Part shown: positions 16,670 through 19,381 of the stretch, piece after piece
Layout of the letters: each line of letters starts with the position of its first letter
Position numbering within the stretch: the stretch's first letter is position 1
From: a virus
IMG/VR virus record: IMGVR_UViG_3300044627_003543
Coordinates: 1-23,566 of that record
Direction: 5' to 3' (one strand)
Length of the DNA: 23,566 bases
Translations under genes and position numbers: made by a program
Notes under the pieces: generated by a model
What the model was told of the DNA's origin: nothing
The model's input: the letters and a program-made list of their open reading frames with translations, nothing else
The model's database searches: none

Positions 16670-17233
16670 ATGGCAACCGCCGCTAAAATCCAAGTTACAC
16701 GCTCTTCACGAGTTAACTCACCCAAAGCACGTGCGTCCTATCCGCACATCTTCAAGCCCACGGCCTTCCAAGGCGAGGGTGACCCGAAGTACTCGATCAG
16801 CCTGCTCGTGCCCAAGGCCGAGAAGAAGTTCATCGAAGACCTGCGCGCAGCCCAAGACGCCGCGATCAAGGAGCTCTACCCAACCAAGGTGCCCACAAAC
16901 TTTGAGCGCTGGGGTATCACCGACGGCGACGAGGTCGACGATCCAGCGGCCAAGGGCAACTGGGTGATCAAGGCGAGCAACAAGCAGCGCCCACGCATTG
17001 TGGACGCCAACAGCGCCGAGATCTTGGACGAGCTCGAGGTCTACGGTGGCTGCTACGTGCGCGCCAGCCTGAACGCCAAGGCCTACGGCACCTCACAAAA
17101 GGGTGGCGTGACCTTAGAGCTCAACGTCGTGCAGAAGGTCGCCGACGGCACACCGTTCGGTGGCGCAGCCAAGGCCATGACCGACGCCGTGGGCGAGCTC
17201 GGTGCCTACGTCGGTGACGACGAGAGCTGGTAA
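16670..17233 (+). CDS. DUF2815 single-strand DNA-binding-like protein
   Basis: This 187-aa DUF2815 protein probably has an OB fold related to phage single-strand-binding proteins such as T7 gp2.5. Recognisable segments are ARASYPHIFKPTAF (21-34), KYSISLLVPKAEKKF (40-54), GCYVRASLNAKAYG (about 127-140) and GGVTLELNVVQKV. The acidic, aromatic C-terminus DDESW resembles the protein-interaction tail of single-strand-binding proteins. It would coat single-stranded DNA for the nearby polymerase and nuclease. Its ribosome binding site is weak (AAAAAGG, about 8-14 nt upstream). The stop codon is followed after 4 nt by a structured, gene-free stretch of about 400 nt. Confidence 0.9.
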   Translation: MATAAKIQVTRSSRVNSPKARASYPHIFKPTAFQGEGDPKYSISLLVPKAEKKFIEDLRAAQDAAIKELYPTKVPTNFERWGITDGDEVDDPAAKGNWVIKASNKQRPRIVDANSAEILDELEVYGGCYVRASLNAKAYGTSQKGGVTLELNVVQKVADGTPFGGAAKAMTDAVGELGAYVGDDESW

Positions 17234-17237
17234 GCTA

Positions 17238-17600
17238 GTTACAGGTCGCCGGGCACCTGAACCCAAAGCCCGGCACCAACACGCATGAGGATTGCCGTAA
17301 CCACAGAGCAGCAAGTCGTAAGGCCCTATGCCCGAATAGCAGTCCTCAGTCGTGTTGGTATGTGAAAGCAGATGCTGTGGTGATGGGTAGCACCCAGCAA
17401 CCATTCTAGATCGTCGTTGATAACAGCTTGCCATTGTGCAGCGAGTAGCATGCCAACAAAGTGCTAACGGCACCCATTTCTGATTCGGTAGGTGCGTACA
17501 AGTCGTGTCACTTATGCCTGATGAAGCGAAAGCAGAAACCGCAAGGTCGCATAGCCCACCGGACACGATAAAGTGGTGGGGAAGATCAGAATGACAGCTC
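17238..17600 (+). ncRNA. Large structured RNA with two pseudoknots, unknown class
   Basis: This lies in a 399-nt gene-free gap between the DUF2815 and polymerase genes. Helices found by eye:
- Pseudoknot I: 17242-17246 with 17255-17259, crossed by 17248-17254 with 17268-17274 (7 GC-rich pairs).
- Long arm: 17275-17283 with 17351-17359 (9 pairs), a 2x2 internal loop, then 17286-17295 with 17339-17348 (10 pairs, one G-U).
- Hairpin: 17378-17381/17400-17403 and 17384-17388/17392-17396.
- Pseudoknot II: 17503-17509 with 17562-17568, crossed by 17555-17560 with 17575-17580. Its first loop holds stem 17512-17517/17549-17554, which carries two GNRA tetraloops (GC-GAAA-GC at 17526, ACC-GCAA-GGT at 17538).
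G-U pairs and GNRA loops occur in the plus-strand reading only, so the RNA is made rightward. It matches no group I, group II, tmRNA or riboswitch signature I know. It could be an independent RNA or a cis-acting leader of the polymerase. Confidence 0.62.
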
Positions 17601-17622
17601 GGAAAGACGGCACTTTATAAAG
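17591..17622 (+). promoter_or_regulatory. Possible promoter or palindromic site before the polymerase gene
   Basis: ATGACA (17591-17596), a 17-nt spacer and TTTATA (17614-17619) resemble a sigma-70 promoter. TTTATA lies within the perfect 10-bp palindrome CTTTATAAAG (17613-17622). The transcript would start only a few bases before the GTG, too close for the AAAGGA site to work well, so this is weak. Confidence 0.25.
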
Positions 17623-17632
17623 GATAAACACG

Positions 17633-19381
17633 GTGAAAACGGTCGCACTAGATATTGAAGTCTACAAGGATTACTTCCTTGTCATGCTCAAAGACGAGCA
17701 GAAGACGATGTACTACGAGATGTACGAAGGTCACGACCTGAACCGCGACGCACTGCGCAGCGTGCTGGGTCGGGTCTGCGTGGTGACGTTTAACGGCAAC
17801 GGCTACGACATGCCGCTACTAAACGCAGCGCTCGAGGGCGCGAGCTGCTACGAGCTCAAAGAGTACTCAGACAACATCATCGTGCACGACATACGGCCGT
17901 GGGAGCTTGACCTGCGCGCGCCCAAGGGTGTGAACCACATCGACTTAATCGAGGTCGCACCGGGGCTCACGGGGCTCAAGACCTACGCCGGGCGCATGGG
18001 CGCACCCAAGATGCAGGACCTGCCCATCGAGCCCTCGGCCAGCATCACGCCCGAGGACCGTGTGGCGTTGCGCGAGTACTGCGAGAATGACCTAGATGTC
18101 ACGCTCATGCTTTACGCGCGCCTGCAGCCCCAGATCGCGCTGCGTGAGAAGTTAGGCGACCAGTACGGCCAAGACCTGCGCAGCAAGTCCGACGCGCAGA
18201 TTGCAGAGGCCGTGATCAAGGCCGAGGTGCACAACGTGACCGGTAAGCCCGTTGGCAAGCCCCGTGTGACGATCGGCAAGGTGTTTAAGTACAAGGCACC
18301 CCCATTCATCCAAGAGAGCGAAGCGCTTGATTTCGTGCGCGCGTGTGACTTCGTGATCGCCGACACAGGCTCACCCAAGTGCGAGGCGCTAGACAACTAC
18401 CGCGCTGGCAACTACCGCGCTGGCAACTACCGCATGGGGATCGGCGGCCTGCACAGCACCGAGAGCGCGATCACGCACATCGTGGCCGAGGACGAGTTCT
18501 TAATCGAGCGCGACGTGGCGTCCTACTACCCCTCGATCATCCTGCAGTGCGGCCTGTACCCAGAGACGATGGGCGAGGCCTTCCTTGACGTGTACACGAC
18601 CATCTACGAGCGAAGGCTGGCTGCCAAGGCCGCGGGCGATAAGGTGACCGCTGACACGCTCAAGATTGCGCTTAACGGCACCTTCGGTAAGCTTGGCAGC
18701 AGGTATAGCTGCCTGTACTCACCGGGCCTGCTCGTGCAGGTCACGCTTACCGGCCAGTTAGCACTACTTGACCTGATCGCGATGGTAGAGGGCGCGGGCG
18801 CGCAGGTGGTGAGCGCCAACACCGACGGCATCGTGATACGGGGCAAGAAGACGCGCTACGTGGCCGTGCAGGAGGCCGTGGTTAAGTGGGAGAAGTGCAC
18901 GGGCTTTGTGACCGAGGAGGCCGCCTACCGCGCGCTGCACTCGCGTGACGTGAACAGCTACGTGGCCATTAAGGCTGACGGGCACGTGAAGCTCAAGGGC
19001 GCGTACGCCACCACCACGCTCTCAAAGAGCCCGGCTAACGAGATATGCTCGATCGCGGCCGTCAAGTACTTGGCAGAGGGCGTGCCCATCAGGCAGACCA
19101 TCTACGGCTGCGAGGACATCACGCTCTTTGCCACGGTGCGTGCGGTGCGCACGGGTGCGATCTACAGGGGCAGGTACTTGGGCAAGGTGGTGCGCTGGTA
19201 CCGGGGCACTGAGGGCGACTTCATCCGCTACAAGAAGAACGGCAACAAGGTACCCAAGTCAGACAACGCGGTGCCAATCATGGAGCTGCCAGAAGTATTA
19301 CCCACTGATATCGACTACCAGTGGTACATGAGCGAGGCGGTAAAGATTCTGATAGACGTAGGTCTTCATAAACTTTATTGA
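17633..19381 (+). CDS. Family B DNA polymerase with proofreading exonuclease
   Basis: This is a replicative polymerase, short for the family (582 aa). The 3'-5' exonuclease shows ExoI ALDIEVY (D7, E9), ExoII FNGNGYDMPLL (N54, D59) and ExoIII YCENDLDVT (Y149, D153). The link to the polymerase domain is GIGGLHS (269-275). The palm shows motif A RDVASYYPSI (D294), motif B LKIALNGTFGKLG (K344, N348, G352) and motif C SANTDGIVI (D398). In motif C the usual DTDS is NTDG, with one catalytic Asp retained, as in some other phage PolBs. The start is GTG at 17633, with AAAGGA about 9 nt upstream. Phages with the DUF2800/DUF2815 pair often carry a PolA instead. A tandem NYRAG repeat precedes the GGLHS motif. 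Confidence 0.93.
   Translation: MKTVALDIEVYKDYFLVMLKDEQKTMYYEMYEGHDLNRDALRSVLGRVCVVTFNGNGYDMPLLNAALEGASCYELKEYSDNIIVHDIRPWELDLRAPKGVNHIDLIEVAPGLTGLKTYAGRMGAPKMQDLPIEPSASITPEDRVALREYCENDLDVTLMLYARLQPQIALREKLGDQYGQDLRSKSDAQIAEAVIKAEVHNVTGKPVGKPRVTIGKVFKYKAPPFIQESEALDFVRACDFVIADTGSPKCEALDNYRAGNYRAGNYRMGIGGLHSTESAITHIVAEDEFLIERDVASYYPSIILQCGLYPETMGEAFLDVYTTIYERRLAAKAAGDKVTADTLKIALNGTFGKLGSRYSCLYSPGLLVQVTLTGQLALLDLIAMVEGAGAQVVSANTDGIVIRGKKTRYVAVQEAVVKWEKCTGFVTEEAAYRALHSRDVNSYVAIKADGHVKLKGAYATTTLSKSPANEICSIAAVKYLAEGVPIRQTIYGCEDITLFATVRAVRTGAIYRGRYLGKVVRWYRGTEGDFIRYKKNGNKVPKSDNAVPIMELPEVLPTDIDYQWYMSEAVKILIDVGLHKLY
18395..18433 (+). repeat. 15-bp tandem repeat inside the polymerase gene
   Basis: The unit AACTACCGCGCTGGC occurs twice exactly (18395-18409, 18410-18424), followed by a 9-bp partial copy. 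It keeps frame and encodes NYRAG-NYRAG-NYR just before the GGLHS motif. Perfect copies point to recent slippage. Confidence 0.9.

Follow-up and report, generated by a model that had tools for sequence, protein, structure and literature searches.

What lies in the 399-nt gap (17234-17632) that separates an SSB-like gene from a DNA polymerase gene in a 23.6-kb virus record, IMGVR_UViG_3300044627_003543, whose entire 23,566 nucleotides are referred to here as the window? The initial annotation, which gave the gap its correct length of 399 nt, proposed that it held one large structured RNA, possibly closed by an outer helix. Related sequences back the individual structures, with the exception of that outer helix; in place of a single RNA, however, we found several modules with differing histories that recur at other loci and in other phages. 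We favor, at a probability of roughly 0.55, the reading that the gap would be a mosaic serving the polymerase message, within a polycistronic phage transcript, as its leader and processing region, with one module, unit C, cleaving itself between positions 17548 and 17549. The modules and both flanking genes all lie on the plus strand, as follows.

16670-17233, plus strand: SSB-like gene of the Enc34 ssDNA-binding family (PF10991, E = 7.3e-42; phrog_112), 5' of the gap.
17242-17274, plus strand: pseudoknot I, H-type, with 5 and 7 pairs and loops of 1, 0 and 8 nt; retained in every relative whose gap is readable, insert-free ones included.
17275-17359, plus strand: the arm, with base helix 17275-17283/17351-17359, upper helix 17287-17294/17340-17347 and an exchangeable interior; from arm-end pairing and relatives.
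17354-17457, plus strand: unit B, with stem P1 (17354-17363/17448-17457) and conserved GAAAGCAGAUGCUGUGG (17364-17380) and GUGCAGCGAGUA (17436-17447); from distinct copies, covariation and a held-out model.
17459-17592, plus strand: unit C, a hammerhead-like RNA with pseudoknot II; from a structural scan, compensatory changes, fold energies and a 98% identical unit at another locus, L125.
17512-17554, plus strand: hammerhead-like core of unit C, with stem I 17512-17517/17549-17554 and CUGAUGA 17518-17524; from the structural scan and fold energies.
17526-17533, plus strand: stem II hairpin of the core, between A17525 and A17534, with GAA at 17535-17537.
17538-17547, plus strand: stem III of the core, followed by C17 (17548); cleavage predicted at 17548/17549.
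17593-17611, plus strand: hairpin tag, GACA-stem-GAAAGA-stem, whose window copy carries a bulged U; from its exact 19-base form and covarying stems.
17633-19381, plus strand: DNA polymerase gene with a GTG start (phrog_1252, E = 2.6e-178), 3' of the gap.

Nine viral contigs (L001-L009) carry the same gene pair with a polymerase identity of 92-97% and a readable gap, the gaps of L001 and L002 and those of L003 and L004 being near-identical; an SSB search supplied two further, more distant contigs, L156 and L157. Alignment of these gaps revealed a modular make-up. In L006, L008, L156, and L157, the gap contains only pseudoknot I, after which the polymerase ribosome site follows immediately. The gaps of L001, L005, and L007 contain pseudoknot I, the arm, and unit B, and those of L003, L004, and L009 contain pseudoknot I, an arm, a different hairpin-ended unit, a second arm, and unit B. 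Among the aligned SSB-polymerase gaps, unit C is present only in the window, and a BLAST search detected no copy of it in any of the nine closest relatives. The arm, unit B, and unit C do recur together in L125, a 4.5-kb contig, 5' of a different gene; there, unit B is nearly identical to that of the window, and the unit C stretch is 98% identical.

This modular gain and loss, with pseudoknot I common to all, indicates that the gap is a mosaic and not one RNA. Because the arm, unit B, and unit C precede a different gene in L125, and are present or absent among relatives, the cassette that they form moves between places. Judged from these sequences, units B and C, which are partly or wholly missing in close relatives, are exchangeable cassettes rather than an essential switch, and the cassette would be dispensable for polymerase expression as such; similarly, the lack of unit C in L001-L009 argues that its predicted cleavage is dispensable in the SSB-polymerase operon. 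Thus, the original interpretation stood in part: a structured RNA with a likeness to ribozyme cores is supported, but the single-RNA reading is not, as most of the proposed RNA is missing in L006, L008, L156, and L157. Loss of helices in relatives, named in advance as evidence against the proposal, does occur, but by whole modules. We rejected the outer closing pair, GAGCTG with CAGCTC, because its 3' part is found in L125 in another gene context and its 5' part is missing in most close relatives.

Pseudoknot I proved to be as first described, with a 5-pair stem 1 (CAGGU 17242-17246 / ACCUG 17255-17259), a 7-pair stem 2 (GCCGGGC 17248-17254 / GCCCGGC 17268-17274), a 1-nt loop, and an 8-nt A-rich loop; the whole reads CAGGU-C-GCCGGGC-ACCUG-AACCCAAA-GCCCGGC. 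Compensatory changes support both stems: in L157, a G-C pair of stem 2 has become A-U, and in L156, a U-A pair of stem 1 has become C-G, alongside a bulged U in stem 2. In the distant polymerase relatives PHS21, AH2, LP.1, AL, JS26, and AchV4, the same site is occupied by a terminator-like hairpin and no pseudoknot; hence, pseudoknot I may have replaced a terminator, and expression control at this point is apparently old.

The operator of T4 gene 32 pairs a pseudoknot with an adjoining ribosome site (PMC535899), and a comparable role, in which the SSB-like protein would bind pseudoknot I and control translation of the next gene, is conceivable but improbable. Like that operator, pseudoknot I is of the H-type and neighbors a phage SSB gene, which here lies directly 5' of it, and in the insert-free gaps of L156, L157, L006, and L008 it stands directly 5' of the polymerase ribosome site. 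In the window, however, about 360 nt intervene before the start codon, and distant relatives have the terminator-like hairpins in its place. Further, the SSB family is not that of T4 gp32, and the T4 operator precedes the SSB gene itself, whereas pseudoknot I is located 3' of it.

The arm described in the initial annotation was likewise upheld, with ACCAACACG and CGUGUUGGU forming its base beneath the upper helix. All of the 15 distinct arm ends, drawn from many contigs, were paired at 8 of 8 positions, compared with a mean of 6.4 and a maximum of 7.2 in 2000 shuffles. Arm interiors are replaced wholesale among relatives, and those of L007 and L125 contain a tRNA T-arm-like stretch. The GUUGG at 17354-17358 can pair either with the CCAAC of the arm or with the CCAAC at 17453-17457, so that the arm base and P1 of unit B are partly mutually exclusive. 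In the Manatee Spring phage genome MW202484 (L299:2430-2640), an arm, ACACGCAUGAGG...CCUCAGCCGUGU, starts immediately at the 3' terminus of a tRNA-like gene.

Unit B is widespread. Among the matches listed for its pattern GAAAGCRRATGCTGTKG in IMG/VR, 79 of 121 then show the 3' core GCAGCNAGTA, and a broader pattern applied to the collected loci yielded 71 distinct sequences in phage contigs, the window and its relatives included and some contigs possibly interrelated. The first four positions of the P1 stem flanking GAAA and GAGUA are paired in 69, 70, 67, and 68 of these 71 copies, whereas shuffled controls averaged between 35 and 52 and reached at most 50 to 61 (34.8 and 51 for the first pair); P1 pairing had played no part in selecting the copies. 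For 15 diverse copies, the covariation score was 0.70; shuffling brought it to 0.20, and sliding to no more than 0.19. A covariance model from which the window's lineage had been withheld recovered the window copy with 44.3 bits (E = 1.5e-12). The GAAA opposite GAGUA would fit the AGUA/GAA of a bulged-G (loop E) module. Of the 71 copies, 53 have a detectable gene start, and for 34 of these the distance to the downstream start codon is 20-39 nt; the genes that follow, which include those for HNH endonuclease, CopG-like repressor, polymerase, and unknown proteins, are mutually unrelated.

The Rfam scan called for in the initial annotation produced no meaningful match in the gap, and none reached the gathering score in the window, L125, L007, L009, L003, L005, L156, or L157; the expectation of a structured plus-strand RNA outside Rfam was therefore sustained and its novelty not removed. 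At E <= 5, Rfam gave no match to the window copy of unit B; judging by that copy and the window's relatives, unit B would lack an Rfam family. BLAST comparison of canonical unit B with named phages returned short, weak matches only; a scan of a genome collection with the unit B 3' end gave two matches, both judged to be chance, and a literature text search with motif strings found none. The RNA class to which unit B belongs was met in no searched library or paper; it appears to be an undescribed class located just 5' of many phage genes. Copies of unit B at two loci merit separate mention. At L211:3664-3762, a tRNA-like interior with a D-arm and a T-arm scores 20.8 bits with the tRNA model, below the cut-off. 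At L194:1307-1384 and 1555-1615, two divergent neighboring copies each lie just 5' of a small reading frame, and they suggest a minimal core of P1-GAAAGC...GYGAGUA-P1'.

The likeness of pseudoknot II to ribozyme cores, proposed at the outset, was borne out, in that it encloses a hammerhead-like core, and the two GNRA loops reported in the gap, GAAA and GCAA, are loops II and III of that core. The stretch 17512-17554 reads UUAUGC-CUGAUGA-A-GC-GAAA-GC-A-GAA-ACC-GCAA-GGU-C-GCAUAG, and the core nucleotides C3, U4, G5, A6, G8, A9, G12, A13, A14, A15.1, U16.1, and C17 are complete within 17518-17548, as they are in L211, L212, and L233. The two helices of pseudoknot II, an outer stem (CGUGUC 17504-17509 / GACACG 17562-17567) and a crossing helix (CCCACC 17555-17560 / GGUGGG 17575-17580), exhibit compensatory changes over four sequence types, with a single mismatch in L212; a lack of covariation, also named in advance as evidence against the proposal, did not occur. 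Three helices surround the core; covariation comes from stem I, where both sides are changed at four of five pairs across the four types, while stems II and III are paired but invariant at the compared positions and add none. A structural scan of the collected loci identified the variant also in L125, L211, L212, and L233, bringing the loci known here to five, two of them nearly identical; a match in L061 is likely false. In fold energy, the hammerhead is at the minimum in L211, L212, and L233, and 1.5 kcal/mol above it in the window. A hammerhead model run over 100 whole records revealed no further strong copy.

An A-A mismatch at the stem II base (10.1/11.1) is common to all copies, and so to the four types, at a position where the published hammerhead search demands a base pair, N10.1-N11.1 (PMC3088659). 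With the Rfam hammerhead model, L211 scores 16.7 bits against a cut-off of 48.5, and the window has no match. Because of the mismatch and this low score, we classify unit C, from its sequence, as hammerhead-like rather than as a member of the family. It is established both that prophage hammerheads flank genes and that hammerhead pseudoknots are needed for fast cleavage (PMC3088659), and unit C is probably self-cutting.

The A-A mismatch would also suit a leader that controls the polymerase gene in cis without cleavage, in which the units would serve as binding sites for a protein or ligand or as antitermination RNAs, and the hammerhead core would be a degenerate scaffold. The frequent position of unit B close 5' of start codons, its strongly conserved internal loops, GAAA and GAGUA, which seem to resemble the bulged-G (loop E) module, and the terminator-like hairpins in the gap of distant relatives are consistent with such control. 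However, the genes after unit B (HNH endonuclease, CopG-like repressor, unknowns, and polymerase) are unrelated, and therefore suggest no common pathway or ligand; we regard control without cleavage as possible but unlikely.

Pseudoknot I stays at the SSB end of the gap, and the arm, unit B, unit C, and the hairpin tag form a cassette between it and the polymerase gene. Under the processing model that we prefer, cleavage by unit C between 17548 and 17549 would part the SSB mRNA from the polymerase mRNA and leave the latter with an 84-nt structured leader, in line with a proposal made for other hammerheads of phages (PMC3088659). The arm and unit B may protect the upstream 3' end or regulate it; in gaps that lack unit C, they may do so for the polymerase 5' end, and may in this way shape transcript ends or ribosome access.

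The hairpin tag extends the comparison to other phage loci. Its exact form, GACNCCTCGGAAAGACGAGG, occurs in at least 120 IMG/VR stretches, where an estimated one or fewer would be expected by chance, and the motif, frequently in the vicinity of tRNAs, is found in over 100 phage contigs. Of 124 tag contexts matched without a pairing requirement, most of them fetched via the CCUC form itself, 116 are fully paired, many with stems other than CCUC; in the window, the stem needs a bulged U to pair. In 23 of 101 contexts, a T-arm motif is no more than 130 nt from the tag, compared with 0.4% per 130-nt tile, and in Microcystis phage Mvi-JY20 the tag is 3 nt 5' of tRNA-Leu. Contigs with the tag also carry tRNAs, skipping-rope and Betaproteobacteria-1 RNAs and, in one case, GOLLD. 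In the window itself, no tRNA gene was recognized and the GOLLD and ROOL family models had no match.

Two further repeated units carry the tag. Unit A, GCCUUUAGCAAGC...UAAGGGUC...GCCUAGCUUUAGGGCUUGAC plus the tag, is a recurring phage RNA unit (L163, L164, L166-L168, L170-L174, and L184), often right 3' of a Cro-like gene, whose inner stem sequence varies between copies. Its CCUUUAGC...UAAGGGUC portion presumably resembles a retron msr; we rejected a retron or group II identity, as no reverse transcriptase (PF00078) was found in 20 records, some of them fragments. In L158, L164, L166, L170, and L176, where the tag comes after the Cro-like gene, it is flanked by TTGACA and CATAAT-like boxes that are spaced as in a promoter; next comes a long terminator with a loop able to pair upstream, possibly a pseudoknotted terminator RNA. 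The other unit, GGUGUGAGUGAUAG... with the tag at its end (L196, L203, L219, L265, L281, and L291), occurs shortly 5' of a reading frame starting ATGGAGATCATTGA or similar.

The case for structure in the gap comes from comparison, as far as these sequences go, and not from folding energy, which is unremarkable and uninformative (z = -1.35 on the plus strand and -1.33 on the minus strand). The plus-strand value would accord with chance structure in a neutral gap; covariation in four modules, and the failure of the structural scan to find the hammerhead in 12.7 Mb of shuffled sequence, already contradict this, and we consider it virtually untenable. Selfish RNA cassettes, passed from phage to phage by recombination and maintained with no service to the host operon, would account for the presence or absence of whole modules among close relatives, the nearly identical units B and C 5' of a different gene in L125, and the HNH endonuclease genes after unit B in two contigs, one of them tested. 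Yet the compensatory changes reflect selection on structure, unit B holds its close distance to start codons, and the 20 records lack a reverse transcriptase, making purely selfish elements quite improbable.

If unit C cleaves, as our processing model predicts, the hammerhead family gains a variant that published search rules discard over its stem II mismatch. More broadly, and quite tentatively, phages may hold interchangeable RNA cassettes (units A, B, and C, arms with swapped interiors, and a near-invariant tag) before genes and between tRNAs, where they process or control transcripts. Since the slot taken by units A and B elsewhere is one that a hammerhead can fill, these two units could themselves be unrecognized self-cleaving ribozymes. 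The hairpin tag ties the units to tRNA islands that also house GOLLD and skipping-rope RNAs, and the modules offer simple, testable entry points to the possible processing and control of phage transcripts by RNA alone. The parts of the gap, a hammerhead variant and the RNA class of unit B, are more interesting than a single RNA.

Among known systems, unit C most directly invites comparison with the hammerhead ribozyme (RF00008), with which it shares all core nucleotides, three helices, and a C at H17; like phage examples (PMC3088659), it has a pseudoknot on the stem I side and a site between phage genes. It departs from that family in the A-A that replaces the 10.1/11.1 pair, in a pseudoknot that joins the stem I side with a downstream strand, and in scores below the cut-off of the Rfam models. 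GOLLD and ROOL (PMC12286853) are, like the modules described here, phage RNAs outside protein genes, and contigs with the tag contain tRNA islands and, once, GOLLD; the gap, however, has no sequence or model match to them and, rather than forming a single large RNA, is built from small units that precede genes and can be exchanged. Skipping-rope (RF02924) and Betaproteobacteria-1 (RF02932) RNAs are companions of the tag on the same contigs, but the modules of the gap match neither model.
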